The position numbers and the translations under genes are program-made. Below, piece by piece: positions 5,143 through 62,043 of a stretch of 64,000 bases of DNA. The stretch spans positions 40,949,082 through 41,013,081 of the forward strand of contig OX344751.2 in the NCBI GenBank assembly GCA_947034885.2. The letters run 5' to 3'. Origin of the DNA: Thuidium tamariscinum (Eukaryota > Streptophyta > Bryopsida > Hypnales > Thuidiaceae). The notes beneath the pieces were generated by a model. It ran no database searches and was not told the DNA's origin. It was given only the letters and a program-made list of their open reading frames with translations. Each line of letters starts with the position of its first letter. The stretch's first letter is position 1.

Positions 5143-5825
5143 TTGGTAAGAATTGTTGTCTATCCGGAAAAGCACGGGGCTTCTGGCTCTAGTAGATGTC
5201 TATGAAGTAAAAAGAAATGAAAAGAAACAATAAGCTATATAGCCAAAAGCTAAACCTATCACTTATCGAAAGTATAAAGTCTAAACGAAAAGATCTACAA
5301 CTCAAACCTCACAACCTCAAACCTCAACCCTCGATTCTCAAACCTAACAGAAACGGTAGCACTCGAAGCCGCCTCGAGTTTGCCTACCACACTCTCAAGC
5401 TTGAAGAACACACCCTCAGTATAAAACCAATATCAACAAAAAGAACAAAATACAACTTCAAACAAAAAGATGGCTCCCCAAACACAACCACTCAATTTCC
5501 AACTCCAAGTAATGGAAAGTAATCGAATACAAAAGAGAGTCCAACCAAAAAGATGATCTAACATCCCATGATGAAGATGAATTCAAGGTGGCAAGGCCTC
5601 CCTTTAAATACCCTTCAAAGATCTAACCTCCTTGTGAGACTAGCCGCCAAAAAACCCTAACCTCCCGGTGAGACTAGCCACCAAAAAACCCTAACCATAG
5701 CTGCCAAAAAACCCTAACCTCCCGGTGAGATAGCCGCCAAAAACCCTAACCCTTCAATACTTGGAATTTTCCTTGAATTAACTTAGATGCCTAAATTTAC
5801 CTAATAGACGGCCCACATCACGACA
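5143..5825 (-). repeat. long terminal repeat, inverted partner
   Basis: 683 bp, the reverse complement of 4,512-5,139 with few differences. It is about 55 bp longer because it carries one more AACCCTAACC-containing tandem unit near 5,640-5,735. Its 3' end (near 5,143) reads TTGGTAAGAATTG on the plus strand where the partner predicts TGTCGTAAGAATTG, so the inner end has changed. Identical 101-residue open frames on opposite strands (4,759-5,064 and 5,217-5,522) are a by-product of the palindrome and not genes. Confidence 0.7.
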
Positions 5826-7022
5826 CCGCTGCTGTGATTGGCTCTTGGTCAAGGAAACCGGTGTCTCCCCTGTTCCGGATTCCAGTATGATGGCCGATTT
5901 GGGAGGTGTGGTCATAACCACATCCTCAGATGGCTCTCCGGTTTTGTCCTTCGCCACTAGAGTTGTTGGCTTTCCCTTTAGCAAGGGTGGCTTAGAGGGT
6001 GTCGCCTCTGTCACTTTCTCTTCTTCCGGTTTAGTTTTCGGTTGGAGGGGCGGACTGACCTCTCCCATGACTTCCCTCATCTGCCCCAACAACCTCTCCA
6101 TCTTTACGTTGAAGGAAACTAGGACGTTGATCACCTTGTCTCCTAGCTTCCCTGTCCCTTCTAAGACCTTCTCATCAAAGAGTTTGGCCTTGTTCAAAAC
6201 CTCTGCCGGAACGCTAATGAATTCTTTAATCCGGTCAAGGGTCTCTACAGACTAAGCTGAGAACTTCCGGTTCCGCTCATTTTCCTGCTTTTGCTCACTC
6301 AACTCTGCTTTAAGAGAGAGCAGTTCATCCATCATCTCCTGATGCTTAGCCTTTCTGGATTTCCCCTCAGCATCGTCTATCAGGTTCCGGAGCTGCTCTA
6401 TACATTCATTCCCCGGAATGTCTCCTAACATCTCGGATACCTTTTTCAAGGTCTCTCTCTTTCGCTCATAACTCTCACGGACTTTCGTGAGCTCCCTAAT
6501 GATAGACCCTAATGGGTCGTTGTTCCAGACAAGGTCCTTCTCCTTTCCCTGTTCTACCTTGACCCCTGCCCCGCTCTACTTTTCCGATTCCAGTTTCCCG
6601 ATCAACCCGGAAGGTTCGCCCTCTCTCTCAGCTTCCTCTCTCTCATCATCTGAATCCGACTTCATCCCATGGGCTAACTTCACCTCCCTCATTGTATATT
6701 CTTGTCTCTCAGTTTCTCTCAAGCAGTCTTGTGAATGGTAGAGGTGGTAGAGGAAGGAAGATATGCTAGAGGGCTTAGTCTTGCCGACCCCCTTGCACAG
6801 CTTTACTACATAATCTCTCAAGGCTAGACCCCAGTCTATCTTCCTGTCCCTGCTTAGTGCCCCAAATATGGTATTCCCCAAGGTGAGAGTCATCCGGTTT
6901 CCCCTATTCGGACTGAGAATCGGTACCATAAATTCTAACACTCGCCTTTCTCTCGCGTTCTTGCAATCGCTCCCAGACATCGCTCCCACAACTCTCGAAA
7001 AATCCACAGAAACCTTACACAT

Positions 7023-9471: not shown

Positions 9472-11640
9472 ATAGAAACATTGCAGTACATGAAAAAGAG
9501 TTGTAAAATTGGATGAAGAGAATGAATCAAAAAATAACAAGGCCTTTGGGATTGACATCCGTAACATGTTAACCTAGAATGTAAAGCAAAATTTAATGTG
9601 GAAGTAACTTCATCTCCATTTTATTAAACTTGTGTATCGTAACTATTGAACAAATCAAGATGGCATTACATTATGAATAATTCTTCGTAAATTGCATGAA
9701 GCACTGAACCCCCACAACAAGGAAAGGGCCTTTTGAGGGGGGTCACAAAAGAGATTTTCAACAATACAGTGGTTACGAATCTTGAAGGGATGAAACAAAG
9801 GATTTATGTAAAAGCACATGTTAAAATCTTGCACTAATTGTACCACAAATAACAACGTCTGTATACACAAATGTTCAAACCACCATAACCCCAGCACATG
9901 CAAACAAGTATTATTAGCAAACTAGCATTAGTTGGCAGTTTTGTCCATATGTATTTTTAGCTAATTGTTCTTTGAAATTTTAACAGTACATGCACCCAAG
10001 GAGTACCTCGAAGACCCAAGCACTTTCTTTACATTAGAGTACATGCACTAGCTGGATCAATCATTTTACATAAAAGGAGAATTGAGAACAATCAACCACT
10101 TCCAATAGAATAAGAAATCCCACAATGCACACTACAATTCATTTTTTCATCCAACCCTAATAAATCAATAAATAACTAACTGGACGACAAATTAATCTAT
10201 TTTAATCTAATAAAATAAAATAAAATATTTTAGGTACTTTTAATTTGGTTACTTGTTACTTTAGTGTCTATTTTCGAAAGGAAAGAGTAGTCTTGCATCA
10301 ATGGCCCTTGATCCTGTGGACATTGGCTCATTGTCATGACGAACAGACACTTTATTTACGCCGGACTACTTTTAGTTGACCGGAGTTTCTATATATACAT
10401 GCACCAAAACTTATAGCAAGATTTGATATCTTTAATTTTCATTGGGTGTTCTTAGTAGCTTTTAAAACTTTTTTCAAAAACTCCTTCTTTGAAAACAGAA
10501 GTTCTAAATTAATTATTGAGATTCATATAGGCATAGGTTGCATACGAATTATACCGTTTGGATAAATGATATGAAAGTTGTGAATACTTTTTGTTTGTGA
10601 GTAGTTCATAGGAGATTATGCAAGTTTTATACTCAAATATACATTGAAGTCCTTCAATTCAAAAAATATTCAATACAATAGAAAAAAATTAAAGCATCGC
10701 ATGTAGATTGTTTAGTAGAACATTCCAACCATTGGGATTGCCATTTCCCAATCTATGAAAAACATTTTATTTAAATTTTATATTTCAGAAACGTTTCTAA
10801 ATTTTTTGTACTTAGAAGCCAATTGAATTTGAACTTCAGAAATTGTTATCTATAAATAGAGGCCTTCCACAAATATGAAATGACTTGGGTTAGATGTCAA
10901 TTTCAAATTTCATTTAAGGTAGAAGGCTCTTCAATGGAGCGAGGTCTACAATGGTGCTCTATCTTAAATGTACAGTATTTGTACATGTTGCTTTTTCATA
11001 GTTTTCAACAATGTACTGATAGTGTACATTTTAGCGAGGGCACAATTTTAGAGCCCTATGTCTTTTCAACTTCAAAAATTGATAAATAATTCAAAAAAGC
11101 TTAGAAAAATATAAAATGACTTGGGTTAAAATGTTAAATGTCTATTCAACTTTTCTTTCAAGGAAATTTACAAAAAAATTTAATAGAAGTTTTGCGTCTC
11201 TGAAATTATGTTTGAGCCCTTCGGTTGTGCATTATGAAGACAAAGTTGCCTTCAGAGTTCCCTCTTCATCCATCCTTGCCAGTTCTTTGGGTGAAAGTTC
11301 AGTGACCCTGACCCTGCACTCAGCTTTCCAAGCATGGGCAATAGTCAAACCCATGAATGGCATGAAAAAATAACTCAAAAGACCTTCCCTATATTGACTA
11401 TGAATTCCTTGAACCACGTGGCAGATCAATTTTTTGTAGTCATTCTAAATAACATTGAGAGCTTATTTAGATGTTATACGCAGCAAGAATGCTAGGCATG
11501 GCACAATGCGATGTTAGCTGTGATTTCCTTTTGTTCTTTCTGACATCATATTAAACCAGTTTGGAATTCCAAAAATTCCATCCCCCTCCTTATGTTTTAA
11601 CAAACTTCTACGTTTCACTGAAACACCTCAAAAAAGAAGG
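9472..11640. other. AT-rich intergenic DNA with repeat relics
   Basis: No supported gene. The stretch 10,540-10,760 matches the interior of the TTAA-flanked copy at about 33,955-34,110 (shared ATGAAAGTTGTG, AAGTCCTTCA and TAGAACATT words in the same order), so another fragment of that family lies here. Related sentences near 10,876 and 11,112 (ATGACTTGGGTTA) show a local duplication. Confidence 0.35.
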
Positions 11641-11710
11641 GCTCCTACTAGTGAATGATTGTTTTGCAGTCATTTAGGACAGTCATTTCGGACCCCAATT
11701 CCTTGTAGTG
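11641..11710 (-). mobile_element. two abutting CACTA-type termini at the 3' end of the kinase-TPR gene
   Basis: Read on the minus strand, CACTACAAGGAATTGG starts at 11,710 and continues for 57 bp with close similarity to the CACTA terminus at 47,495 (same GGTCCGAAATGA, TGTCCTAAATGA and GCAAAACAATCATT words). At 11,653 it is cut by a second terminus, CACTAGTAGGAGC, which resembles the foldback at 38,331. This is nested or truncated CACTA-family DNA. No matching right ends were found. Confidence 0.6.
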
Positions 11711-42567: not shown

Positions 42568-43963
42568 CAGTGGGGTACCAATAAAAAAAGTCGTTTTCGA
42601 ATTCGCATTGAGAAAATTTTTAGTATTGCCAACTTTGAAAGCCTCAGACTGAGAGCTCAAAAATTGGTATTTAACCACAAAATTTTTACCACAGCATAAA
42701 ATTCAAGTTAATTATATGTTTGACAAATTTCAAGGCCAAAAGATTTACGGAAAAAAAGTTATTCAAAATCTACCAACATGGGTAGTGGTGAGGAACATTT
42801 CACTACTTTCAACTTTGACACCTTCCTAAGGACTAAGTTATGGTTTTTTTTCCGTAAAATTTTTGTCATGAAACAATCTCTATGTTTTTAATATGTATAA
42901 AAAATTTCAAGGTAAAAAAAGTTTTTTTGAAGAAGATATTTGAAATCTCCCAACAAGTGTAGTTCTGAGAAACTTTTGACAATTACCAATTTTGACACCC
43001 TACCAAGGGCTAAAAATTTAGTTTCTTACCATGAATTTTTTTTTGTGAAGTCATCTCTATGTTGATAATATATGCTACAAATTTCAAGTTCAAATGAATT
43101 ACCAAAAAAAAGATATACAAAATCTCACAACATGTGTAGTTATGAGGAGGAGTTTTTGAGTCCTTAGTATAGTGTTATTTTGTAGAGCCAAGTTTGACAC
43201 GAATGTAGAAACTCAACCTCACAACTACACATGTTGAGAGATTTTGAATAGCTTTTTTTGGGTATGTGTTTTGAACTTGAAATTTGGAACATCAACATAA
43301 AGTTGATTTTATTCAAAAAATTTCATGTTAAATAGACAAATTTTCAGCCCTTGGGAGGGTGTCAAAGTTGGCAATAGTGAAAATTTTCTCATAACTATAC
43401 ATGTTGTGAGATTTTGTATATCTTTTTTTTGGTAATTCATTTGAACTTGAAATTTGTAGCATATATTATTGACATAGATATGAATTCACAAAAAAAAAAT
43501 TATGGTAAGAAACCAATTTTTTAGCCCTTGGTAGGGTGTCAAAATTTGTAATTGCCAAAAGTTTCTCAGAACTACACCTGTTGGGAGATTTCAAATATCT
43601 TCTTCAAAAAAACTTTTTTTACCTTGAAATTTTTTATACATATTAAAAACATAGAGATTGTTTCATGACAAAAATTTCACGGAAAAAGAACCAAAATTCA
43701 ATCCTTAGGAAGGTGTCAAAGTTGAAAGTAGTGAAATGTTTCTCACCACTACCCATGTTGGTAGATTTTGAATAACTTTTTTTCCGTAAATCTTTTGGCC
43801 TTGAAATTTGTCAAACATATAATTAACTTGAATTTTATTCTGTGGTAAAATTTTTGTGGTTAAATACCAATTTTTGAGATCTCGAGAGGCTTTTGAAAAT
43901 GGCAATACTAAAATTTTTCTCACTGCGAATTCGAAAACGATTTTTTTTATTGGTACCCCACTG
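42568..43963. mobile_element. 1.4-kb Tc1/mariner-like foldback
   Basis: Starts CAGTGGGGTACCAAT and ends in the inverse (ATTGGTACCCCACTG), with TA on both sides (42,566-42,567 and 43,964-43,965). The whole 1,396 bp forms a palindrome with arms of about 690 bp centred near 43,266. CAGT ends with TA duplication fit Tc1/mariner-like MITEs. Each arm has degenerate internal repeats of about 160-200 bp marked by AAATCT(C/A)(C/A)CAACA and TGTAGT(T)(C/A)TGAG words (near 42,765, 42,945, 43,120 and mirrored). No transposase. The small open frames inside are palindrome by-products. Confidence 0.75.
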
Positions 43964-45769: not shown

Positions 45770-46240
45770 ATGGCAGACGAGAAGTTGGAGGAAGTGATTC
45801 TAGCCTTCCGGAATGTCAATCCGGTTGTGCCCACGAAGGAGTAAGATAAGCTAGAGTTGGAGGAAGACCTCAAGCAGATGCGGGCATTATCCGGAAACTG
45901 GACGGCGGCGATGTGGCGCAAGGTGTACCTATTTGAGCAAGGCGGAGATGGATCAGCCTCCCGGACTAACAAATTTCACGTGGGTAAGTTCCGGAGATCC
46001 ATAACTCCGAAGGATGGGTTCACGGTCACGGAGTGTATCTCGCCTAGGAATAGGAGACTACTCCAATATATGATTGCCATCCTCAACCCAGATAGGCCAA
46101 GTAGAATCACGGTCACCATAGCAAACACCATCTTTAGTGCATTGTCAAGAGACTGAAAGGTAGATTGGGGGTTAGTGTCGCAATACAGGGTAAGTAAATT
46201 CCCCATTATACTCACAAAAATCACTGAAGAGTATAACTAA
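45770..46240 (+). pseudogene. putative plant transposon protein, second copy, N-terminal part
   Basis: ATG at 45,770 opens MADEKLEEVILAFRN. The frame is interrupted by TAA (45,842-45,844) and TGA (46,154-46,156) and ends at TAA (46,238-46,240). Residues about 100-130 (RRLLQYMIAILNPDR, then ANTIFSALSRD, stop, KVDWG) align with the minus-strand copy at 6.8-6.95 kb (LEFMVPILSPNR, GNTIFGALSRD, KIDWG). A donor-like CAGG|GTAAGT occurs near 46,187, so the original gene may have had an intron there. The coiled-coil and acidic C-terminal parts of the other copy are absent. Confidence 0.55.
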
Positions 46241-47494: not shown

Positions 47495-47991
47495 CACTAC
47501 AAGGAATTGAGGTCCGAAATGATTGTCCTAAATGATTGCAAAACAATCATTCCGGACCTCCACGACTAGAAAATGATTTCGGACCCCTGCAGTCATTGTC
47601 ATGCAGTGATTCCGGACAATGACTGTAGTTTTATTATCACCATCCACTTGGAGGGAGGATGAAGGGATGGATAACACTGTCTACGTGGTGGGTGATGATT
47701 TAGGGAAATTTTTGGAATAGGGCGGGCAGGGGACCATTTCTGCCCAAAATTTTGGACTGGACCGCCAAACTGAGCCTTCTGGGTAGTCATTAACCAATCA
47801 CCGCGCTGACTGCTGTGAAGTCATTTTCTAGTTGCAAGGGCATTTTGAATTGGGTGACGTGGATGGCCACCTCAGCGAATTCTTAAGTCATTTCCTAGTC
47901 GCGTATCTATCAAACTGAGCCGATTATGGAGTCAATCTTTAGTTATTGTGTAGTCGCGAAAGTGCTGACGTAGACTTGTAACTCTGGTGGA

Positions 47992-48718
47992 GGGTCGTTG
48001 CAAGAAACACTTACCGGTTTTGGCTCAAAATGGCTCAAAATCAATGAGTCTTGTGAGTCCTATGACCCTTTGAAATAATTTTTTTTTAAATTGAAAAAAA
48101 TATGGATAATTTGAAGAGCAATGAGAATATTATGTCTCTTGAAATTCAGACCTAAATTTTTTTTTCTCTAAATGTTATAGACAATGGGAAATACAATGAA
48201 AAGAGCTCTTTTTTCACTAATTTGGTAAAAATAGTAAAAAAATTCAAAAAATGAAAATGAAAAATCCATTTTTTCTTCAAGTAAAGGTATTTCTTTTCCA
48301 ACAAATTTCATCTTTGGAAAAAATAAATTCTATTCTCTACACTTGCGCAAAGTCATCCACTTTGACAACATGTGGAAGTTGGACAGTTTAATATTTTCAA
48401 AAATTCTTTTTGGGGATTTTGTAACTATACTATATATCTAAGCATGACAATTTTCAGCTCAAAATTTGCATTTTTGGGTCAAAAATAGAACTAAAACCCC
48501 CCCAAATGGCTAAGGTAGACAGCCAATTGGGGGCAGTTTAAAAATAGTAAACTAGTTTTGAAAAATTGAAAAAATTACACAACATATAAAACTTTTGTGT
48601 GCACCTTCATTCCAAATTTCAAGTTGATAAGGCAAACAATGCAAAAGTTATGAGCAAAAAACTACTTGTTGGAGGTCAAGGGGACAAAAAATAGGACAAG
48701 TGTTTCTTCCAATCACCC
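47992..48718. mobile_element. MITE nested in the CACTA element, perfect TGGA duplication
   Basis: 727 bp from GGGTCGTTGCAAGAAACACTT to ..AGTGTTTCTTCCAATCACCC, flanked by TGGA at 47,988-47,991 and 48,719-48,722. Inverse orientation relative to the copies at 12,772 and 16,452. The best-preserved member; it fixes the family's ends and a 4-bp target duplication. Confidence 0.8.
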
Positions 48719-50314
48719 TGGACGTGAGTCATTTTCATTGACTTATTTCACTATCTCACAACGGCATGGGTTGTACACATACGAAGTCATTTTCAAGTCA
48801 TTTTGGAGTTCCACAATAGAGGTTATGAAGAAGGTCCTAGTCATGCACATATAGTCATAGTTGAGTTCCTCTTATTTCTTAATTTTTGCTACTGCAGTCA
48901 TGATGAAGTCATATTTCAGTGACTTTGTAGTCATTTGAGCAGATAGGACATTAAAGTTGCATTCGACATGGCCAACGCACATGCCTATAGTGCTGAAAAA
49001 TGCATGCAACTGCGAGCAAAGGGTCAAGACTTTCCAATGCATGATGACATTCATGCAGCCAAATTCAATGACTTCTAATTGACTCACTCCTGATTAGCAC
49101 AACGACTATAGTGACTATGCATACGTGACTCTAATGTCACTAGTACAGAGAAAAAGGACTCTTGCATTTATACAACTCCGAAATCAGGTCAGTGCAATAT
49201 AAACCACAGTATACATATGCAATGGTAAGGATTCAGGGACCAATCACGCACATTATACAAGCTATGATATGAAACCAAAGAGAAATGTTGATTCAGTCGG
49301 TCACCAACAATGCAGTCAATTGCCCTAAAAGAGGTCCCACAAAATGCTTGTAGGCAAATAGCATTTCAAATGTTACATTTACAATAGTTATGCAATCCTA
49401 CAAGATTCCCAAAATATCCATCTTGATTTTGACCTATAGAAAAGGGTTACCAAAAAATGAAACTCAAGTAGTTGGCTTCATGTATTTTTGGTCCCACACT
49501 GTACATGTTCCCTTTACATGTTCAATGTTTGTTTGGTTGTTGCTGGAATTGGGGTATATAAGTGCTGCCCCTACATACAAGATGTCCCGAACATCCACCT
49601 TCAACTATGTCTCAAGAATATCCTGGAAGTGGAACTTGTGTTGGCCTGGGAAGCCACTAATGTTTCCCACCGCCACTTTTTGCCTGATCGCTCGTGGGTT
49701 CATTAGAAACACTTCGTCGCTGAGCTTGTACTACAACCATGCCAAACATCAGTCCAAATGACCTACAAATATTAAACTCTCCTCACTGAATCCCTCGCAT
49801 ACATTGTTCTTTCATGTGACTTCCACGTAACCCCAGTTCAACTTCTAAGGGACTAGTCTGCCTACTCTGACTTCTAATCGAATCTATTGTTACTTCAATA
49901 AGGTTATAAGGTGTCACTACTAGATTTGTTGACAGAACCACTTGTACGTAACTCATGCATGACTTCGGATATTCCATACTCAATATGTTACTGTGTTCTG
50001 ACTTCACTGAATCTATGAAATGACTTCAAGATGATTGTACAGAAATATTTCTCCTAAAAGGGAATGGCAAGCGCCTAACAGTTGGAGGATTTAAACTCAC
50101 CTTCTTCGTGGATTGTCCGGAATCTTTTTTGTCTGCTGTCGATGCTCCCTTCGATTTCGGATCTCGCTTTTGCACCTTTCCTTGCATATACATTGGCAAC
50201 CTCTTAGATACAAAGCTCTAAGGAAGGTGAAGGGACGCCTTCACATGTGGAACCCAAGGGTTGGAGAGTCCCCTCACCTTCCACAATGTCTAGGAACTCA
50301 TATGCATTTCCAAT
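48719..50314. other. CACTA subterminal DNA and 3' region of the minus-strand gene
   Basis: AGTCAT-type words are frequent up to about 49,140. On the minus strand a donor-like GAAGAAG|GTGAGT occurs near 50,100, so one more 3' exon of the FCP1-like gene may end there. Other open frames are short and unrecognised. Confidence 0.35.
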
Positions 50315-51327
50315 TCAGCGTCTCTGTAGCATTTCAGACATTGAGTCGTTGGTAATTTCTGGAAATTTCAATCGGAAGGCAACAACGCTTGGGCAATTGT
50401 ACCAAGCCTCCAACAGCGGCCACAAGTACCTTTTTAGATACTCCTTGTCATTTGCCAATGTGCAAATCCACTTCACATAGAAAGGAGTGCTTATGATCAC
50501 ATTAGCGTTGGGGTTGGTAGCCACCCTACTGTGCACACTATCTACTACTAAAGTGTTTTTTGCTCTAAACTTTGGCCACGCTGCATATACTGCCTCTAAG
50601 TTCTTCACAAGGTCACTTCTTGACCCACCTTGTATGTCTTTCTACTCACAATGTTTACCGGACCAAGAAAACAGTGGCATTGCTTTTGTGGATGTCAACC
50701 CGGACAATATAGAAGGAACAACGTCATCCATATATGATTGGCTCTTGGTACCCCAAAAAGCTACGGAAAAGTAATAGAAGCATTTGATTAAAAATGGTTT
50801 CAGCCAAGGCCTAAAAACCACCCTCTTGCAATTAGTATTCGTGGTACTCTTGATTTTACTATTTGGATTTGCATCAGTCAACAAACTACAATCCAGAAGC
50901 GTACCATGCACATTAAATATCACTAGTTTTGGCAATTTCGGTTTTGGGTTCGAGGTCAAGTTCCTCAATGCACCAGAAGGACTCTCCCCCCTCAATTTCT
51001 ACATTGGAACCCCAACCAATGAGTTTACCTTCATGGGTGACTTCGGAGGTTTCCTGGTTTTCTTCTGCAAGACCTCGGGTCCGGCTACCTCTTTGACAGT
51101 TGCTTTGGAGCCTTGAATGTCTCCCTCCACTGTATCGTCCGCTTGAACTTCAAGTGGCACATCTTCCTCATGGGTTGGGTTCTTGGAGTTCTTCGGATTC
51201 GTTGTCAAAGGACTGCCGTTATTGTCTGCGACCTTCATTGTGTCTTCCTTCAGGTTGACCTCCGCAGCTACATTGTCGTCCGTGTCATTGTTTTCTTCTG
51301 CCTCCGTCTCGAATTCAGCACTTCTAG

Positions 51328-51697
51328 CAATACAACAAAACATGGTAAAAAAAACCGCGCAGGAACTTCCAAAGTGGTTTCTTTTGCCATGAATTTGTGC
51401 GCGTCTTTCTTTGCGCGTTGCGCGTAGTAGACAGCCAACTTTGGCAGCAATTTCCCACTGCATTTTTGGAATTAGGAAGCTTGTCATATATCATTGGAAA
51501 GGTATTTTGGGTATTTTGAATACCTTTCCAATGATATATGACAAGCTTCCTAATTCCAAAAATGCAGTGGGAAATTGCTGCCAAAGTTGGCTGTCTACTA
51601 CGCGCAACGCGCAAAGAAAGACGCGCACAAATTCATGGCAAAAAAAACCACTTTGGAAGTTCCTGCGCGGTTTTTTTTACCATGTTTTGTTGTAGTG
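51328..51697. mobile_element. CACTA-type foldback MITE 1, TAG duplication
   Basis: 370 bp, almost perfect palindrome centred near 51,510. The right end is CACTACAACAAAACATGG in inverse; the left end is CAATACAACAAAACATGG (third base changed). TAG at 51,325-51,327 and 51,698-51,700. GCGCGTCTTTCTTTGCGCG-type GC-rich words in the arms. Its mirrored open frames on both strands are artefacts of the palindrome. Confidence 0.85.
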
Positions 51698-51710
51698 TAG
51701 TCTTCTGTAT

Positions 51711-52059
51711 CACTATAACAAAACATGGTCGAAAAAACCCGCGCAGAAATTATTTTGTGGTTTTTTTGCCATGTTTTTGTGCGTGTTTTTCTTTGCGCGT
51801 TGCGCGTAGTGAACAACCAACTTTGGTAGCAGTTTCCCACTGCAATTTTTGGAGTTAGGAAATGTGTCATATATCAATGAAAAACCTTTTCATTGATATA
51901 TGACACATTTCCTAACTCCAAAAATTGCAGTGGGAAACTGCTACCAAAGTTGGTTGTTCACTACGCGCAACGCGCAAAGAAAAACACGCACAAAAACATG
52001 GCAAAAAAACCACAAAATAATTTCTGCGCGAGTTTTTTCGACCATGTTTTGTTATAGTA
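51711..52059. mobile_element. CACTA-type foldback MITE 2, TAT duplication
   Basis: 349 bp palindrome centred near 51,885, starting CACTATAACAAAACATGG and ending in its inverse with one change. TAT at 51,708-51,710 and 52,060-52,062. Same family as MITE 1 with diverged arms, so a separate insertion and not a duplication. Only 13 bp separate the two. Confidence 0.85.
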
Positions 52060-53263
52060 TATTGGCGTCTCTTCTACTGCAGCTGCAACGTTAGCTACAG
52101 TCTGAGTGTCAACCGCACACGCCGTATCACTAACAGCTGCTGGTCGGACCTGAGATTGACCAGGTGATGGCTTCGTGACTTCCTGAGTCGCCTTCGCACT
52201 TACAACCTTCCACTGCTATTTGGCTAATTTCTTATCAGTTGTAGTCTTCTCTAACCTCGTTAGCTCTGACAATGAAGACTCAAGAAGGATATTCACAGGA
52301 TTTACAATTTTCTGTTCTTCCACCTTCTTGATAGTGGGCTTCCCTTTTTTCTTTTACGGTTCCACTATCGTTGAGCATGACGGCACCAAGATCTAGAACC
52401 TTCTTCTTGGACTGAGGCAGCAATCTTGTGGCTTCAAGCCCATGACGTCCACGCATGTCTTCATTTTCGAGCGCTGAGTGGGTGATGGAGGGGCATACTC
52501 CATCCCCAACCTTACTCTTCACTACCAAAGATTGGACCATGGACCGCAATTCTTCTAATGCGTTGGACTGGGCTTGATTACTGGCCAAGAACTTGTCCAT
52601 CTTTGCGTCCACATCTTCCTTCCAAGATTCCATCATTTTCCACCGATGAGATTCATCTGCCCCCCTCCCTTCTTTGGACAGGCAACCATATACACAGTTG
52701 TCATCAGTCATTTTCATGTCATAGAATAGTCAACACTAATGACAATACTACTTCAGTGACACTCCTACGCGATAGAGCTTCAACTGGAAAATGAGTATGA
52801 GTCATACTTCACAACTAGGGACGACTGGCACATGATCTAGGACAACTTGCCAAAGAAATAAAATACACATGGAAATAATTTAATGTGCCCTGAATCAACT
52901 TCAGCGGCATCTTAATTACATATGACGACTTAGAGAATGGTAGTATGTTTAAGGATTTCAAGTGGATCCTCCTCTTTAACACAAGCCAATGCACTAATGA
53001 ATATGTGGTTCAAACATGACAAACACAATGTGCACATTCACAATACAATGTGGCAGTCGTCACACAGTAGCTCACCATTCCAAATTTCCAATATGTCACC
53101 CAATACACAAATATTCTGTTCACCGTACCATTGGCTTATCTCTTCAATGTGAAGAAAACTAGACAAGCATGCATTTCCAACAGAATGGAAATGACTGACC
53201 TTTGAAGAACTAAGAAAACCAACCTACTATCCACAGACAACCGATAGCGAAGCCGGATCTTAC

Positions 53264-53347
53264 CGGTGGAGGAGCTCCCTGTCCTGCTCTTGACCGCCTC
53301 ACGTCACCAATGTCTATGATTCCAGGACTGACATCCCGTTGGGTACT
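53264..53347 (-). CDS. small internal exon of the CACTA-borne gene
   Basis: 84 bp, 28 codons in frame (STQRDVSPGIID then DVRRSRAGQGAPPP), between an acceptor TTTGGCAG and a donor CACCG|GTAAGA, both good consensus matches. It follows the larger exon at 53,488-54,480 in phase 0. No domain recognised. Decay elsewhere makes the gene non-functional as a whole. Confidence 0.5.
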
Positions 53348-53487
53348 CTGCCAAATACACAAAAGACCAGCTTCAGTTGTAGTCCAAACATATCTAGTAA
53401 CAAAAAATGACAAGAGACTTACTACTGATGGTTTTACAAAAGATGGAAAGCATGAAGACAGTCGACCAATTTGGAACAAAAACTAAC

Positions 53488-54480
53488 CACAATGTTGTCT
53501 TTCCCTGCCTTTCCTTTCCTCCCCACTAGGTCATAATTCTTTACACTTTTACGGGCTTCAGCCATCTTCAGCGCCTTGTCCTTCTGGGCATCAGTATTCC
53601 AGTACTCAACAAGTCGGTCCCACTGTTTGGGATCCACGCAAAGAGGAGCCTTCACAGTGCCTTTTGCTACCATTTTCTGGTAACGTCCTTTCAGCCGAGA
53701 TCTTTCAGACTTCAAATATCTTGTGACTATCACTCGAAAAGCACTCGTGCTCAATGGAATCCCCACATATTCAAACTCAGCATCGAGGGCTTCCCTAAGC
53801 TTCTTCACAACACGAGGCTCCTGCTCCTTCCAGTTAACAATGCTGATGTCTAGCGTCTTCGGGACTAGGTCTCTCAAGGCTTCGTCCCACGCATTTTTCC
53901 CGTCGCAGGTGTCGTCTATTTCTCCAGTTGACAAGACCGTCACAGGATTTGGTTTCATTCCAAAGGTAGCCCGCTGAAGACTACCCTGTTGGTATTCATT
54001 TTTCCTCTTCCGCCTAGACAAGCGTTCCTCTGTGTCTTGGGACGTACCCACGGGATACGGCTCATATGTTGCTGGTAGATAGCCCGACCACGCCCTTGCT
54101 GCTGGTGTAGGTGGTCCGCCAAACCAAGGACTTGCTGGTGGCCCCTAGCTAGATATATAGTGCCCAGGAACCTAATTCCATGGTGGTTGATTGTAATTAC
54201 CCTTGTCTGTAGGTGGTGGCAGTGGCGAAAACAGTACTTCACAGGATCCATATGGCGATGGCAATGGAGGTAGCTGTCTTTTTTGCTTAGCCCTAGAATC
54301 CACTAGTGGTTCCTCATCTTCTAGTCGTATGTCATCGTCAGATGAGTCCACGACCTGCCGATTGTTATCTACAAGATCAACATTGCCAACATGCGAGGGC
54401 TCATATTCTCTGAGTCGTAGCTTGTTTAGACTTGTGAATACAAAAAATTTACAGGAATTCATTGCTAAAAGTGACCACAA
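53488..54480 (-). pseudogene. CACTA-borne gene, Transposase_24 (Ptta/En-Spm)-like exon
   Basis: One minus-strand frame from about 54,480 to a donor ATTGTG|GTTAGT at 53,488. Two in-frame TAG stops lie near 54,170 and 54,150. The N-terminal part is acidic and Pro-rich with many Tyr/Gly (VDSSDDDIRLEDEEP, PPLPSPYGS). The distal part from about 53,850 (VNWKEQEPRVVKKLREAL, RYLKSERSRLKGRYQKM, PKQWDRLVEYWNTDAQKDKA, then a KSVKNYDLVGRKG tail) resembles the plant Transposase_24 family found in Ptta/En-Spm elements, a probable DNA-binding regulator of transposition. It sits upstream of the FCP1-like exon on the same strand. Confidence 0.6.
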
Positions 54481-54625
54481 TTTGTAGTGTACTCAATCAA
54501 TCAACGCCCATGCATGCTAAGTCACCAAGCAGCTAAAGCATGAACAAAACCATCAATTTCTCGATTGGCCTACCTAGGAAATTCTAACACAAACTACTAA
54601 ACAATGAGCATGATGCCAATGTACC

Positions 54626-54757
54626 TGCAGCAGTTGCGTCCTTGTTGGATTGCCGCTCAACTAGTTTACAAGCAATTGCTAGATTCATCATACCTTTCGC
54701 GATTTCTTCTTCATTGGACTCGGTCGCCTCTGAGGATGAATCGTGCTCGCTACTCAT
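54626..54757 (-). CDS. possible first exon of the CACTA-borne gene
   Basis: ATG at 54,757 begins MSSEHDSSSEATESNEEEI, an acidic start, and runs to a donor GCTGCAG|GTACAT at 54,625. The phase does not connect simply to the next exon (phase 1 against apparent phase 0), so either a base is lost or the exon belongs elsewhere. An upstream in-frame basic stretch (KKGDRRLPSTKSRRG) could extend it. Confidence 0.3.
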
Positions 54758-54841
54758 CGTTGGATCTCCAGCAACTCCTTCGTCCCGCTGCCCTCTACGT
54801 GATTTCGTAGATGGCAACCTACGATCTCCCTTCTTCCTCAA

Positions 54842-55749
54842 ATTGCAGCACAGGGGACCCGACTCCTTGTTCTTGGGTACACTAGATTTGTCCTTCTTCA
54901 GCTTCTTCTACTCCACATCCCTAATGCACAACGACGAGAAATCTGAGTTCACTCTATGTAGGAGAGCATCACACACGCTAGTAGTCTAAAATCGCAAGAG
55001 CACTAGCTGCGACATGAGATTGGAGCACTCCTGAACCTCTGACATCAACTGTAACAATGGTTAGGGTTTGGGTGACAAGTAGAGCATAGGATCCCTGGAC
55101 GCGCAGTACGGGCAGGGCTTCCACATGTTTGGAGTAATAATTACAGCCGCCTTTCTGCTTTTTCCTCATGCGCGACTAATAGTTCACTTGTATGCGACTT
55201 CAGAATTACTTTAGGGCAGTTGCATATGTGCCCAAAGACATATAACGCGACTTCTACGTCACTATTGGACAATTGCGGAGCAACTCCTACAACTTAGAGA
55301 GCCTTACCAATTACAGTCTCCCTTGAAAACCCTAGGTGAACGCCGCCCTATTGCTTGGGAATGTGTGCACAGATTAATGGTAACAGAACGGTCAACTAGG
55401 GGCGCGTTCAAAACGGCCCACGACTAAACTAGGTGCTCGATAAAGTAAACATTGAGGAACTCCAATGTCTACTCCACCCCATACTTTGCAAATAGTGTAT
55501 ACTTGTAAGTGGCAACAAGTTAGAATCATGAGAAATTCTTGAACTAAAAGCACAGAAGGGGAGAGAAGTTACAATTCCGCTCTTGTCGCTAGAGCTGGTT
55601 GCATGAATGTTGCCATGAATGCAATGTTTCGATCTTGCTGGAGCTCGTACTCTGTCTTCTCCGGCCAAGGACTTTCCATCGCGGATCTCCTACGTGATGG
55701 ATTGGTAAGTTGTCGTCCCTCCACTACCTCCTTCTCACACACTTCTATT
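54842..55749. other. CACTA internal DNA, 5' region of the minus-strand gene
   Basis: Short unrelated open frames only. Probably promoter and leader of the minus-strand CACTA gene. Confidence 0.3.
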
Positions 55750-56109
55750 CACTAGAAGAAAACTGCGTTGTATTTGACAAAAACTACATTGTAGTCAACA
55801 AAAACGCGTGTAGTGGATTGTGTTGAAGTCTCGAGTTGTTATGTGGAATTTTTCATCCTAACATGAAAATCTACATTTTACTTGTTGCATTCTACTTTTT
55901 ACTTGTTGAATTTTTCATTTTACTTGTTCAATTTTATGTTGAAATGTGGAAACGCAAAATTTTGTGTTATGGAGGGAGAATTCAACACAATCCACCCCAC
56001 ACGTTTTGTTGAATCCAACACAGTTCCAACGCAATCTTTGTTAAGTAAAACACAAATTTCACAAGTTCAACGCAATTTGGGGAATGAATAGTGCAATTTT
56101 CTTCTAGTG
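55750..56109. mobile_element. 360-bp CACTA-type foldback MITE, ATT duplication
   Basis: Starts CACTAGAAGAAAACTGCGTTG and ends ..GTGCAATTTTCTTCTAGTG. ATT at 55,747-55,749 and 56,110-56,112. Interior inverted words (TTGTGTTGAA / TTCAACACAA) support a partly paired foldback. Confidence 0.75.
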
Positions 56110-56112
56110 ATT

Positions 56113-58608
56113 GTAATCGATCACGTAGAGCACTAGATCGATAGAGTCCAGTCTCACTCCAAGCACGTAGTTCTGCAGCGCACATGAAGTTCATGAGTGA
56201 CAGTGCATGAGAGCGGTGCGACCTGGAATTCGTCAAGGGAACTTGTTTTGAAAACAAGAATGCAATACAAATGAAAGATGTAGGCGGTTTATGCTTAAGG
56301 AAGGTGGGTTCTAGTAAAGGATGGAGATTGGTGACTACGTATTTTTTTTTGGCGGCTGATAATTAATTGCCAATTTCAGTAATTACTAATTAGTGAGGGA
56401 CATGTGTTTTGATTAGAGTACATGCCTTCCTACAAAACGTAGCTCTAATTACAATTCGAGTGCACTCATTATAGTCCATATGATTTCTAAGCACTGTAAT
56501 CATGAGAAAACTAGTATTAGCGACATTTAGTCGTACGTCTCCCTAATTAGGCTATAATTAGCCTATTGTACTATGCCTTCTTTGGAGTGGTTTAAATGGG
56601 GGGTCTTCCTTGAAGTCGGCTCGTCAAACAAGTTGAGCTTCAGTCATGTTTAAATCGAAAGATGCATTTAATGACTGAGATGTCACTATTAGGAGTCATT
56701 CGGAAGTGGACCTATCTACAAAATGAGGCTGCAGTTTACTATGGACATAGTCATGAACCTCTTGCTTTATATTTGAAGCGCCAGAAAGATGTAGGTTCTG
56801 AACTGCATGCCTTCTAGAAAAATTTAATTATGTGGATCTTGAAATTCATGATAAATGCAATGTAAAATTGAGCACATGTTGAGTTACTCCTATGAATTCC
56901 ATTGAGAGATAAGAAAGCACTGTCTCATAGAGGATGAGTCTATGAAAACAGTTTGACAAAGAGTTTCTCCAACTATAGAATTGGATGCTCTCGTTGACTA
57001 TGTGGTTGCCTTCTGTGTAGGTATAGTGACTTCACGTGAAAGAGACCACTTTAGATCGGGTTTAGAACGGGCCTTCTACGATTCTACGGTACTAAGACTT
57101 ATCAACTTCCAAACACCTGTAGTGTTCCTTTTAGTCATCGCTGCAGGCCATGACCTATTGAAGTCATTCTTATGCTTGTAATAGAAGTTCAGTTTAAGTC
57201 CCCTATATTTTTTTCTAGAATGCTTTTTTACGGGTACTGGTGTAAGTGCCTTTGTGCATTCAAAAATACGCCTAAAACCGTTTGGTTAAATCTTGTCTAC
57301 ACATACAATATTATCTTGTTTATCCCTTTCAAAGGGCCATGCCCTCAAATACTATTACAATAGGTTGTTGCCATTGTCATGTTCAAGTCCAAATGAAAGT
57401 ACCTTGTTTGTTTGTGGATGTCTTCAAGTATCCAATCCACCTGTCTACGCCATCAATACTGTATGTAGGTGAACCACAACCACTGTATAAGAACAGAAAC
57501 TCTGTCTTAGCTTGCATTATAGAATGCCAAAGCGGAGGGTTTTTAGAGCTGCACCATTGTTTCGTCGTCAAAGACGTAGAGTACTTAGCCCGGATTTTAA
57601 TGATGAGGTGGATGTTAGGGAGATAATTAGTCCTTCACGTATGTCCATTTTAGAGGCCAAACCTATAGAGGTTGGTACAAGCAGTCGTTTGGTGTTACGC
57701 ATAGAAGATGGACATCCAGAACCGCCTTTGCCATGTTCTAGTGAACCAGGCGTACTAGACAATAATACATATCCTACTATTGGAGAGTTAGATCATCGAT
57801 TTGAATTCTAGTTATAGTTGGCTCTAGGTTCTACTGTACTAGTAGAAGGAGAAGACGGAAAGGCTAAGTTGGAAAATGCTTCTGAAGGAGCTTCCATGGT
57901 CATATCCAATAGTACAGAGACCACATCTTCATCCACCACCAAAAATATCCCCTAAACAGAGTCGTAAATAAGTCTACAGTAATAGAAAAGAGGATTAATA
58001 ACCTCATCTTTATTCCACTTTTATGACTACATATATCGCTCATAAACAAATTTTGGACTAAGATATTTCTCCTACTATTATTTGTAATATTTTTTCTAGA
58101 ATGCTTTTAATGAATGCAAGTTTGCAATTCTTGAAGTCAAATTCAAGAATCTTCTGTAAAGGATTTTGGGAGTTGGCAAATAGGTGGACGCCTTTACAAG
58201 TGCAAGGTTGTTTTGTTGCAGTGATGTTGCAGTGGCAAAAGACATGTAGAAGTCATTAAGGAGTGACTATGGAGACATATAAGCTATTAAGTAGTGACAT
58301 TGAAGCTGCAGAAGTCATGTGGAAGTCATTGAAGAGTGGCTTCAGACATATATCAGCTATTCAACAGTGATATGAACTACTTAGAAGTGGAAGTTAAATT
58401 CCTCTCGTAACATGCTACTTTGCATATTCCCATCCTCTGAATTCTATACTGGGAGTGTTAGGAATAGGACTGTAAACTTCAGTCTTTGAACGAATGAAGC
58501 TGCCACTTCTCTTAGTTCCACAAAAAGATGATACCAGCAAGATTTCCACTTACGGACATTCGCAGGTAAAGACTTTGAGATGACCGCTTGTGGATTCATG
58601 AATTGCAG
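56113..58608. other. inter-gene region of the CACTA element
   Basis: AGTCAT-type repeats recur at 56,610-56,760 and 58,240-58,380. A segment of about 880 bp (57,228-58,087) is bordered by direct repeats of TATTTTTTCTAGAATGCTTTT (57,205 and 58,088) and looks inserted; it holds one orphan ORF. Divergent promoters for the two CACTA genes would be expected in this region. Confidence 0.35.
57524..57811 (+). CDS. orphan 95-codon ORF, Arg-rich N-terminus
   Basis: ATG at 57,524 gives 95 codons to TAG at 57,809-57,811. The first 20 residues hold eight Arg (MPKRRVFRAAPLFRRQRRRV), then an acidic, Pro-rich body. Codon choice favours A/T-ending codons. It lies within the segment bordered by 21-bp direct repeats, so it was probably brought in from elsewhere. 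Upstream frames (57,280-57,520) do not connect without stops. No family recognised; chance ORF is a real alternative. Confidence 0.3.
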   Translation: MPKRRVFRAAPLFRRQRRRVLSPDFNDEVDVREIISPSRMSILEAKPIEVGTSSRLVLRIEDGHPEPPLPCSSEPGVLDNNTYPTIGELDHRFEF

Positions 58609-60297
58609 AGGGCCACTGAGTACAATGTGAAGAAATTGCATTGCCCATGCACATAGTGCCGAGGGCGCAAGAGACGGCTCCTGCGCAATGTACGTGAGCA
58701 CCTCATCTGCAACGGCAAAGACCCATCTTGTCGGATTTGGAGAGGGCCCGGCATCAGAGATTCTTCAGATGAAGAGTGGGAGCAACAATTTCGTGGACCA
58801 CTTCCAGAGGAACCGCTAGCAATGGATGCTACTGTTGATGCTCGTGGCATGATTGACCAAGCGACACGTCTACTTCATGACGAAACTTACGTAGTGGAGA
58901 GACTTCAAGAAGAAGTGCAAGATGCTTTTGCCATTGTTGACTCCATCCATGAACAGTCAATGCAGGAGTTAGGAAGGGACGTAGCAGACAGTCAAGAATG
59001 TCGCGATGTAGAGAATCACGAACAAGAGGTTCATGATGGAGGGCAGGAAGATTCAAACTTTGACGCTAGGGTGCTCGAGGAGTCTTTGGAGCAATTATAT
59101 GATGGGGCACAAGCCAGCAAGCTTGCATCCACTGTACTTTTCATGAACCTTTGTACCGTGCATGGCGCTAGCAACCACTGCGCCAATGAATTATTCATCC
59201 TTTTGCATACGCATCTCCTACCGGACAAGAATACCCTATTAAGGAGCTACCATGCAGCAAGTACCTTGACCACAAAATTGGGCTTGACTTACAACACAAT
59301 TCATGCATGTGAATGAGGATGTGTGCTATTTCGTGGCCTTCATGAGAATATAGTCTGTTGTCCCAAGTGCGGCGGCCGTAGATATCGAGATGAAGAGAAG
59401 CGTGCCTTCCCAGTGAAGGTGCTTCGGCACTTTTCAATCATTTCCCGACTGCAAAGAATGTTCATGAGTCCGAGTATCTCAAAGCTCATGCTTTGGCATG
59501 CGGAGAACCGCAGTAACCAAGAAGGAGGTGATGGTCTTGTAAGGCATCCCTGTGATTCGAAAGCTTGGAAACACTTTGAAGAAAACGTGGATCTATCATT
59601 TGGAAATGACCCATAGAATGTTCATTTTGCATTGGCAGCAAACAGGGTTAATCCTTTTAAGCAAAACCGGTCATTGTGGTCCACATGGCCAGTCATTTTG
59701 CTGAATTATAACTTGCCGCCATGGTTAAGTACAAAAAAATTCTTCATGTTGTTGGCTCTATTGATTCCCGGGAGAGAGTTTGTCACAGTTGATGTCTTCG
59801 ACGTATATTTGGAGCCACTTGTTGATGAGTTGTTGGAGTTATGGGCAGGAGTTCCAGCTTATGATGTATCCAAAGATGCTGGCTCTAAGGCTTTTCAGTT
59901 AGGTGCCATGTTTTTGTGGACTATCCATGACTTCCCAGGTTATGGTACAGTTGGAGGATTTTTCCATCAAGGGTATGCTGCGTGCCCGTGGTGTGGCCAG
60001 GACTTAGGCGCCGAACATTCTACAGAGCTCGGTAAGCAAACTTATATTGAAACGCGACGTTGGCTCCTTGAAGATCATCCGTACTGGTCAGAAGAAATGA
60101 AGGACCACTTCAACGGATTCATGGAAAACCACCCAAGACCACGAGAAGTGACTGTAGAGGAGCAGATCCAGCATGTACTGGAGTGCGAGGCATGGGGAGC
60201 AGCTGGAAATAGAGACGGTGTTCTTGGAGACCCGTCCAAATTATATGGTTTGAATTCAAAGCGCCTAAGCATTCTTTTTAAGTTGCCGTACTGGAAG
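58609..60297 (+). pseudogene. CACTA TNP2 transposase, first large exon, three in-frame stops
   Basis: Enters from an acceptor GAATTGCAG at 58,608 and leaves at a donor TGGAAG|GTGAGT after 60,297, 563 codons in one frame. The N-terminal part has a Cys-rich HCPCT-stop-C word and NVREHLICNG then GIRDSSDEEW. The middle holds CVLFRGLHENIVCCPKCGGR. The catalytic-region part has RVNPFKQNRSLWSTWPVIL, DFPGYGTVGGFFHQGYAACPWCG and ends FKLPYWK, all typical of TNP2 (Transposase_21, PF02992). Stops: TAG 58,654, TGA 59,314, TAG 59,614. The next exon, expected to begin with the HNLDVMH-type core, is not found downstream, so the gene is truncated as well as broken. Confidence 0.9.
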
Positions 60298-62043
60298 GTG
60301 AGTTCCAGTAGTCCTTGCACCAGTTTAAGAAAATGAGTGGAAGGGCACTTGTATGCAACTACTACAGTAGATGTAAGTGGATGTGAGCCCTCGAGATGGC
60401 ACTCAGGACTCTGGGTCCATTTTTCGCGATTAAATAGCGAAAATTAGTCAAAATATTCAAGAAAAAGACATAAAAAGAGTGTTGAGGGAGTTTTGGTGTC
60501 AGTCTATGCCAAAATGGTAGAAAACCAACTTAGAAGGTGGAAAATTCCTAATCCTAGAAATTTGAATCATTCTAAGTCTCCAAAGCAAGTTTATGTAAAG
60601 ATTTAGTAATTCCGAGAGAAATAAGGAATAGAGAGTTAGTCAGTCCTAGTACTTGTCTGTGCAAAGTCAACCTTTTGAGGATGCACATGACATACTGACT
60701 AAGCCAAAAGAGTCTACTACGAGCGTGGAAGAGTTACTAGGGCTTAAGTTCAGTGTTGGAACAAATTGAATTTAAAGGTAAAACCACTACAATGGATTTG
60801 GAGAATTCGAACTTCACGAGATAAAAGATGGAGGATTGGAGATTGAAGACTACAGAGAGGTGTTCCAAGGGTAGGAGCATGCCAGGAGCGAACAAGAATC
60901 AAACAATTGTCCAAGATTCCCGGGCATCGGAAATTAAATTGTCCAATTGGGCAAAGTAATTCCAAATTACTAAAATTAGAAAGGTGCAAGGTTGCGTGGG
61001 ACTTACACCAAGAATCTAGGAGTGCCCTAGATGTTACCCAATTTATTTCGGATTTTTCCGAAATTCCACGTTGACTCCATGGAAAGTCAACCGCACATAG
61101 AAATGTTCGTAAAATCATAGAAATTACGTATGATGCGGTAAAATCTCACTAAAAATTAGGATAGGTTTTTGTGTGCTAAATAAGCGCCCGATCAAGTTTG
61201 AAGACATTCTGACATTCCGACATTCCCAACTACCAAAACCGGCATCGACATCGAAATTCACTGGAAGTTACAAGTTGGCGGCGGGTTGACCGGCGTATCA
61301 GGAGCGAATGATGTCCGATTGTCGCAAATAAGGAGTCATTCCTTACTCTCACGAACATACCTAACGACCCTGGCCTGACGGATTCATCAAAATGCACAAA
61401 TCCTAAAAGTTAGATTTTTGACTTTTAATTGGAGTTACCGTAATTCCAATTTGGGCGTGCAAATGGCCTAGGAGTGAGCCTTCAACTATTTCCCATTTTT
61501 CATTTGCCGTTAACAAGTCCAACTTCAACATTGTTAGTCACTACTGGTGGAAATTTCAAGCATTGAGTGCCAAAGTTCGGTTTAAACACTGTCATGTGTA
61601 CCTCCTTTGGTGGCAAAATCTTGAAATACTAAGAAATTTTGGGAATTTAAAGTGAAAGTTCGATTAAACACTGTCATGTGTACCTCCTTTTGCGATTAAA
61701 ATTCTTAAAATACTAGGCGAAATTCCATACGGCGAAGCTTTGAACCCCCACAAGTACATATATTACTCAAACCACTCACAACAAAGTTAAGGGTTTGGAT
61801 AGTTGGAGTTCAAATAACTAAGTCTTTGGAAGAGACCATCAACAACCAGAAAGGAGAAAGGAAGGGCTTTCAACTACAAGCCAATAATTCTCTTGTCAAC
61901 TCCTTATTACATCTACCCCCTGGTTTTTGTAGCTATTGGGAGAAATTGGTCAACTTTTGGAAAATAGGACAACATTCCATAAATCCATTAGATTGAGTGA
62001 CTAGGTGTTAATTCTACCATAACTCAAAAATTAAAGGAGAAAA
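60298..62043. other. unassigned repeat DNA after the CACTA transposase
   Basis: No gene. The text at 61,400-61,500 (TTGGAGTTACCGTAATTCC) recalls the flank at 2.3 kb (TTGGAGTTTAACTC), so part of this may be the LTR-like DNA of that family. A direct repeat is listed separately. Confidence 0.3.
61573..61738 (+). repeat. 83-bp direct repeat, two units
   Basis: AAGTTCG(G/A)TTTAAACACTGTCATGTG-type sequence starts at 61,573 and again at 61,656, each with ACCTCCTTT and AAATACTA words. Confidence 0.65.

Follow-up and report, generated by a model that had tools for sequence, protein, structure and literature searches.

A broken CACTA transposon in a 64-kb stretch of the Thuidium tamariscinum genome (the window, that is, the whole of the DNA analysed) carries an accessory gene with a domain of the FCP/SCP phosphatase family, the NIF domain (PF03031), in which both catalytic aspartates are replaced. 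A catalytically dead pocket appears to have been kept by selection in one CACTA clade, since the Asn, His, Lys and Asp of the active site are nearly fixed in the 61 copies read and the ratio of replacement to silent substitution rates (dN/dS) of the domain is about 0.20. The product of the gene would consist of a Transposase_24-like region, a coiled coil, an acidic linker and a C-terminal NIF pseudophosphatase. Judging from its sequence, we lean towards the view that this is the second (TNPA-type) gene of the clade and that the pseudophosphatase serves as a binding module.

The active site and its conservation

The NIF domain of the window copy and its two altered motifs are placed as follows:

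50315..50998, minus strand: NIF (PF03031) pseudophosphatase domain with a C-terminal extension (Pfam, reading of the open reading frame (ORF), full-length relatives)
50891..50917, minus strand: motif I, FNVHGTLLD, with NxHGT instead of DxDGT (minus-strand reading)
50537..50542, minus strand: motif IV, VVDS, with DS instead of DD; D at 50542-50540, S at 50539-50537 (minus-strand reading)

The original prediction, made from the letters alone, had described NVHGT and DS at these places, and they are read exactly so. It had also proposed a profile search with PF03031. This gives a match at 50642-50998 (minus strand, E=1e-5), whose 25.7 bits exceed the curated cut-off (21.8). Taken alone, the other half of the domain, 50315-50641, matches no Pfam family. 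The two halves are parted by a single in-frame TAG (50642-50644), after which the frame runs on to 50315.

All copies compared were taken from the window's own genome (363.2 Mb, 19 contigs), which holds at least 111 matches to the NIF half-domain, spread over 11 contigs. Sixty-one of the 111 were read, the window's included: 21 from a first set and 40 taken from the remaining 85, after exclusion of 5 matches shorter than 200 bases. The domain has no stop and few gaps in 39 of the 61. All 61 have Asn at the nucleophile position, and the general-acid position is occupied by His in 60 and by Gln in one. The Gly and the Thr of motif I are present in 59 and 60 copies, respectively, and the Lys of motif III and the first Asp of motif IV in all 61. 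The second Asp of motif IV is always replaced (by Ser in 54 copies, Asn in 6 and Tyr in 1). No DxDGT copy was found among the 61 of 111 read, and the signature of FCP/SCP enzymes, DxDx(T/V) with DD in motif IV, is absent from these copies.

The median pairwise dN/dS of the NIF domain is 0.195 for 57 pairs with a silent divergence (dS) of 0.3-0.6 and 0.196 for 157 pairs with a dS of 0.6-1.0. Taken by region, the ratio is 0.20 in the NIF domain (29 pairs), 0.19 in the Transposase_24-like exon (6 pairs only), 0.36 in the coiled coil and 0.42 in the linker (24 pairs each). On the tree of the 61 copies, the NIF sites have undergone a mean of 4.7 replacement changes, and 34 of the 205 sites none. 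The numbers of replacement and silent-only changes are 0 and 1 at the Asn, 0 and 5 at the Asp of GTLLD, 0 and 3 at the Lys and 0 and 3 at the Asp of motif IV. The case for constraint rests on the domain as a whole, since the neighbouring conserved codons have silent changes and the Asn codon just one. These rates indicate that the Asn form of the domain has most likely been kept by selection. There are also 865 pairs at a dS of 1-2, which show that the association is old within the lineage, and no more than that.

The original prediction had left open whether the fold was kept without catalysis or had simply decayed. Under decay, a captured active FCP1-type domain has rotted, and NVHGT and DS are random losses in this copy. 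The window copy is indeed visibly broken, by the TAG, by two miniature inverted-repeat transposable elements (MITEs), by a missing right part and by five stops in its transposase gene, tnp2. The same substitutions are found family-wide, though, the Asn in 61 of 61 copies and the His in 60, also where the domain lies in ORFs of 526-691 amino acids, with a median dN/dS of about 0.2 and no DxDGT among the copies read. The decay of the window copy does not extend to NVHGT, because the Asn is present in all copies, those in long ORFs included, and the domain is under purifying selection. Intact NVHGT copies, whose existence under purifying selection was the proposed sign of a retained non-catalytic domain, refute decay for the family, and it applies just to the other damage in the window copy; as an account of the active site we regard it as very improbable. 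The variant in which the site was lost only here, with intact DxDG copies elsewhere, likewise finds no support among the copies read, and retention of the fold without catalysis agrees with both the fixed Asn and the low dN/dS.

Gene layout and linkage to one CACTA clade

The remaining parts of the accessory gene in the window, with the two MITEs that interrupt it, are the following:

50999..51327, minus strand: 3' part of the acidic linker, with KKTRKPPKSPMKV close to its end (ORF reading)
51328..51697, no strand: palindromic MITE in the linker, with CACTACAACAAAA-like ends (inverted-repeat analysis)
51711..52058, no strand: second palindromic MITE in the linker (inverted-repeat analysis)
52280..52729, minus strand: start of the last exon, with a predicted coiled-coil segment (ORF; coiled coil judged by eye)
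53264..53347, minus strand: in-frame small exon of 84 bp (DNA alignment of copies)
53434..54144, minus strand: Transposase_24-like exon (sub-threshold Pfam match)
54584..54907, minus strand: first recognised coding exon of the accessory gene (matched in 17 of 20 fetched loci)

The gene order is exon 1, Transposase_24-like exon, 84-bp exon, then coiled coil, acidic linker and NIF. Of 20 fetched loci of 10 kb, 19 have a Transposase_24-like ORF upstream of and on the same strand as NIF, and 17 a match to exon 1. Linker and NIF share one ORF of 526-691 amino acids in 16 of them, and the coiled-coil query matched in 15 of those 16. The homology of the Transposase_24-like exon extends upstream in the same frame, past two in-frame TAGs, to 54492. 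The small exon was found by peptide search in the window only; DNA alignment shows it in all eight copies compared, between the Transposase_24-like and NIF exons, with an AG acceptor in 8/8 and a GTAAG donor in 7/8. It is 84 bp long in both copies for which the length was determined, and the exon and its splice signals are common to subfamilies.

Genome-wide, 100 of the 111 NIF matches are preceded on their own strand by a Transposase_24-like exon at up to 15 kb (median distance 2.0 kb), and 104 of 112 Transposase_24-like matches have NIF within 20 kb. The expectation that other family members would carry both domains is borne out, as the two adjoin in many copies in one conserved gene layout. 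It had further been expected that they share a transcript. The genomic layout and the splice signals agree with this, and we infer from them that all exons belong to one transcript.

The gene is also closely linked to tnp2. NIF lies within 30 kb of 64 of the 73 scored tnp2 genes of the clade (73 scored of 805 candidates; 83 rows were scored and 10 partial second rows left out). Random placement in 1000 trials gave a mean of 1.5 such genes and a maximum of 7. The nearest tnp2-NIF pairs are divergent in 63 of 64 cases, the exception being the tnp2 of the window, which is closest to the NIF of an adjacent copy. In a second list, based on PF02992 (150 scored of 627 candidates), NIF is found within 22 kb of 27 of the 29 tnp2 genes of the clade and of 4 of the 121 others, for which the random rate, scaled from the 30-kb test, predicts about 2. 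Within the limits of the tnp2 genes scored, the NIF domain thus characterises a single CACTA clade.

Many intact frames under purifying selection could also suggest a host gene family that has CACTA neighbours by chance. This was rejected on the tnp2 linkage, and we give it next to no credence: the gene lies inside an element with terminal inverted repeats (TIRs) and a target-site duplication (TSD), tnp2 is nearby in 64 of 73 cases, and there are at least 111 matches over 11 contigs. A Pack-CACTA, a non-autonomous element that has captured host fragments, was likewise rejected, on the evidence of an intact element with its own tnp2 and of purifying selection on NIF.

Some Transposase_24-like exons, of 36-42% identity, have no listed NIF within 20 kb (C6:1263102, C6:1248006, C9:21681088, C5:17148193 and C11:13775305). 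It is possible that they belong to sister CACTA lineages that predate the gain of the domain, or that they are host-domesticated genes.

CACTA elements are bounded by CACTA TIRs and a 3-bp TSD. The intact relative in the same genome (C4:21554565-21568931) is 14,367 bp long, with the TSD CTT and TIRs, CACTACAAGGAATTGAGGTCCGAAA and CACTACAAGAAATTGAGGTCCGATG, identical at 22 of 25 positions. One strand encodes tnp2 (PF02992, E=9.4e-67) and DUF4218 (E=1.2e-31), and the other the NIF gene. Motifs with the core AGTCATT are repeated in both orientations in its first 504 bp, the left end being the only one run. TIRs with a 3-bp TSD, a tnp2-type transposase and subterminal repeats place it in the CACTA (En/Spm) group. 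Among the 24 loci scanned (L009-L032), a left-type terminus was found in 9 and the right terminus once. The others stop too early or have diverged, so that one element only is delimited at both ends.

The window copy is a broken member of this family with intact members. Its main features are:

47495..60382, no strand: broken copy of the CACTA element (blocks of 91-94% identity to the intact 14,367-bp element)
47495..47519, plus strand: left TIR, CACTACAAGGAATTGAGGTCCGAAA (25/25 to the intact element)
58516..60336, plus strand: tnp2 (Transposase_21) gene, divergent from the NIF gene, with five stops (2 TGA, 2 TAG, 1 TAA)

Five blocks align with the intact element (47495-47991, 48719-51327, 52060-52878, 52988-55749 and 56110-60382), and PF02992 matches at 59617-60336 (plus strand, E=2.3e-48). 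The CACTA context given by the original prediction is confirmed at the left end, where all 25 bases of the terminus equal those of a relative with a 3-bp TSD. The right end was not found in the window: homology to the intact element ends at 60382, and the copy has no match beyond reference position 10985, where the intact element has DUF4218 and its right end.

Other repeats were noted in the window. The intact element lacks a 360-bp insertion that the broken copy has at 55750-56109; it carries CACTAGAAGAAAA at either end and is another MITE. A second CACTA terminus in the window, at 11653-11710 (minus strand), shares 95% identity with the opening 58 bases of the intact element; to judge by these bases, it belongs to a related element that is non-autonomous or truncated. 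An inverted repeat at 42651-43883, with two arms of 496 bp that are 96% complementary and 241 bp between them, is a large foldback element. An ORF of 639 amino acids recurs near several of the CACTA elements (L032:5957-7873, minus strand; window 45779-46201 and 5817-6971). It lies outside the left terminus in the window, has no Pfam family above the cut-off and is probably another repeat family.

Relatives of the NIF domain

From 37 full-length relatives free of stops, 20 non-redundant ones were chosen, and all 20 match PF03031 at E<=0.001. In the intact copy L010, NIF (40.9 bits) is the sole Pfam match of the ORF at E<=1. A profile built from the 20 copies finds one solved structure at E<=1, that of UBLCP1 (3shq, E=2.9e-6, profile positions 38-166). 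UBLCP1 is a proteasome phosphatase of the FCP/SCP family; no ubiquitin-like part is recognised in the CACTA protein, which in addition has NxHGT for DxDxT and DS for DD.

The family profile gives 30.5 bits to the 3shq fragment of UBLCP1, 27.4 to a repeated class of NIF sequences with the motif DMNG and 20.2 to the host UBLCP1 exons, the start of which is missing. The host genome has one UBLCP1-like place, of two exons on C10, which was found with the 3shq fragment. Other host NIF proteins score lower: 15.1 for SCP, 13.4 and 12.7 for the DLNG class, and -0.9 and -1.2 for exon pieces of CPL type, from partial genes. Comparison by hhalign with a set of three DLNG/DMNG sequences gives a probability of 96% at 24% identity. 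UBLCP1 and the DMNG class score near each other and the host UBLCP1 sequence lacks its start, so that the donor gene is not singled out. FCP1/CPL was rejected as the nearest relative, the CPL-type pieces (partial genes) scoring about zero, and the label "FCP1-like" used in the original prediction is therefore too specific. Two short peptide patterns each, taken from the family profile, found no relative in viral contigs or in bacterial and archaeal contigs.

The second repeated NIF class has the motifs DLNG/DMNG and DDS and keeps the first Asp in an alignment of three. It is represented by loci L033, L034, L035 and L076 (C1:47312500-47320999, C11:11468500-11471499, C5:29218000-29221499), and the L033 query has at least 138 matches among those scored of 535 candidates. 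When 108 of its 150 listed copies were set against 60 of 150 tnp2 rows, a single one of the 108 lay no more than 20 kb from any of these tnp2 places; 39 of the 108 are on contig C11 (17.5 Mb). The five ORFs upstream in L076 have no convincing Pfam match. This class may be another mobile element that carries a NIF protein with a near-normal active site, and its excess on C11 is such as might occur on a sex chromosome or an otherwise non-recombining one.

Proposed function and known parallels

The first Asp of CTDSP1 is the nucleophile and the second assists it, and both are described as lying outside substrate binding; the target of SCP1 is the tail of RNA polymerase II (PMC7281111). UBLCP1 is described as acting on the proteasome. 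With both Asp changed, and as the Asp residues of CTDSP1 are not engaged in substrate binding, catalysis should end in the CACTA protein, and binding not necessarily. In En/Spm, TNPA binds the subterminal repeats, and both TNPA and TNPD are needed for transposition (PMC2613891).

If the gene is indeed of TNPA type with a binding module, the Transposase_24-like region would, by analogy, bind the subterminal AGTCATT repeats of the element, and the coiled coil may, likewise by analogy, multimerise the protein. The NIF domain would be unable to form the aspartyl-phosphate intermediate. Its pocket, which keeps the Thr, the Lys of motif III and the Asp of motif IV, would bind a protein of the host (most likely in phosphorylated form) without hydrolysis, and would act like a substrate-trapping mutant. 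The domain would in this manner tether a transposition or anti-silencing complex to its host partner. We infer that this partner could be phosphorylated, or be the RNA polymerase II tail or the proteasome. The suggestion of the original prediction that the domain could direct the protein to transcribed chromatin would be a conjectural case of such tethering.

A more specific proposal is that of a natural substrate-trapping phosphatase: a NIF phospho-reader, inactivated by Asp-to-Asn and Asp-to-His changes, would hold a phosphorylated host factor at the subterminal repeats. We consider this rather unlikely. Were it true, the factor would be the RNA polymerase II tail, the proteasome or a silencing factor, and its capture would promote the expression of the element, its escape from silencing or its choice of target sites.

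Several points weigh against the reading as a TNPA-type gene with a binding module. As the tree has one silent change at the Asn codon, the constancy of this residue is by itself weak evidence. The dN/dS of the Transposase_24-like exon is based on just 6 pairs, and all three proteins scored against Transposase_24 (PF03004) fall below the curated cut-off of 28.7 bits (18.7 for the window, E=0.002; 16.7; 13.0), with matches confined to the first 41 of 138 model positions. Young pairs are less constrained, the nearest disjoint pairs having a pooled ratio of replacement to silent differences (pN/pS) of 0.30 and single pairs reaching 0.99, as is expected where most copies are dead. Single-sequence structure prediction gives a mean confidence score (pLDDT) of 35, which means that the fold rests on the profile matches. 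Finally, the conserved pocket residues could serve folding only, and the binding of a phospho-ligand is putative.

The last point leads to a reading in which NIF is a structural or multimerisation part of a TNPA-like protein, binds no ligand and keeps its leftover active-site residues for folding. The active-site residues of HAD proteins lie in the core of the fold, and constraint is seen along the whole domain, 34 of its 205 sites having no replacement change. Nothing speaks directly against this reading; the Lys of motif III, which contacts the phosphate in active HAD enzymes, is kept in 61 of 61 copies and may face a pocket. We think it possible, if doubtful.

The pocket could also have gained a different activity, for example a metal- or nucleotide-dependent chemistry with N-x-H. 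Catalytic residues would hardly vary less than the substituted ones do, and the Lys of motif III and the Asp of motif IV are kept. We know of no HAD enzyme with N-x-H, and this alternative seems improbable to us. It has to reckon as well with the role of the first Asp, which is the nucleophile in SCP1 (PMC7281111).

Known CACTA elements share part of this organisation. Maize En-1 and soybean Tgmt* (CACTA, En/Spm) likewise combine tnp2 (PF02992) with a second product of TNPA/TNP1 type, and the second product of Tgmt* has a Transposase_24 (PF03004) match (PMC2613891), which in the exon described here stays below the cut-off. Subterminal repeats, bound by TNPA in En/Spm, are a further common feature. 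In Tgmt*, however, both domains are predicted in one large gene (PMC2613891), whereas here the second gene is separate, divergent and ends in NIF. The CACTA elements of PMC8978399 also have Transposase_21 and DUF4218 and have gained extra domains; there the gained domain is of a peptidase family, here it is NIF. The word "phosphatase" is absent from the main text of that paper.

The closest functional parallel, by analogy, is KIU, the Ulp1-bearing VANC genes of VANDAL elements (MULE), in which a strongly conserved, transduplicated host domain is also part of a transposon accessory gene (PMC13317346). This gene acts on related elements, whose hypomethylation is reported there. The superfamily and the domain differ from ours, and for the CACTA NIF family hypomethylation would be only a guess. 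In MAIL3 of Arabidopsis, a transposon-related domain is joined to a Ser/Thr phosphatase domain; it is a host protein with a plant mobile domain, and its phosphatase is of a different class (PMC5418596). A search of the literature, with subscription papers and preprints outside its scope, found no paper with "CACTA" and "FCP1" as whole words, no title among the best matches on a NIF- or pseudophosphatase-bearing transposon protein, and no paper on Scp1 D96N.

A non-catalytic NIF-type domain that serves for binding is known in TIM50, the mitochondrial import receptor of the NIF family. To our knowledge, few transposon accessory proteins keep captured host domains under selection, the Ulp1-type proteins being the known plant example. 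Such cases point to the ways in which transposons manipulate the host. In this family, which has many copies within a single genome, what has been retained is a pseudoenzyme with a substituted active site that hardly varies. The family allows a prediction that can be tested directly, namely binding without hydrolysis, and offers a clue to the tasks of the second proteins of CACTA elements beyond DNA binding: the transposon may use a dead NIF domain for binding, not for dephosphorylation.

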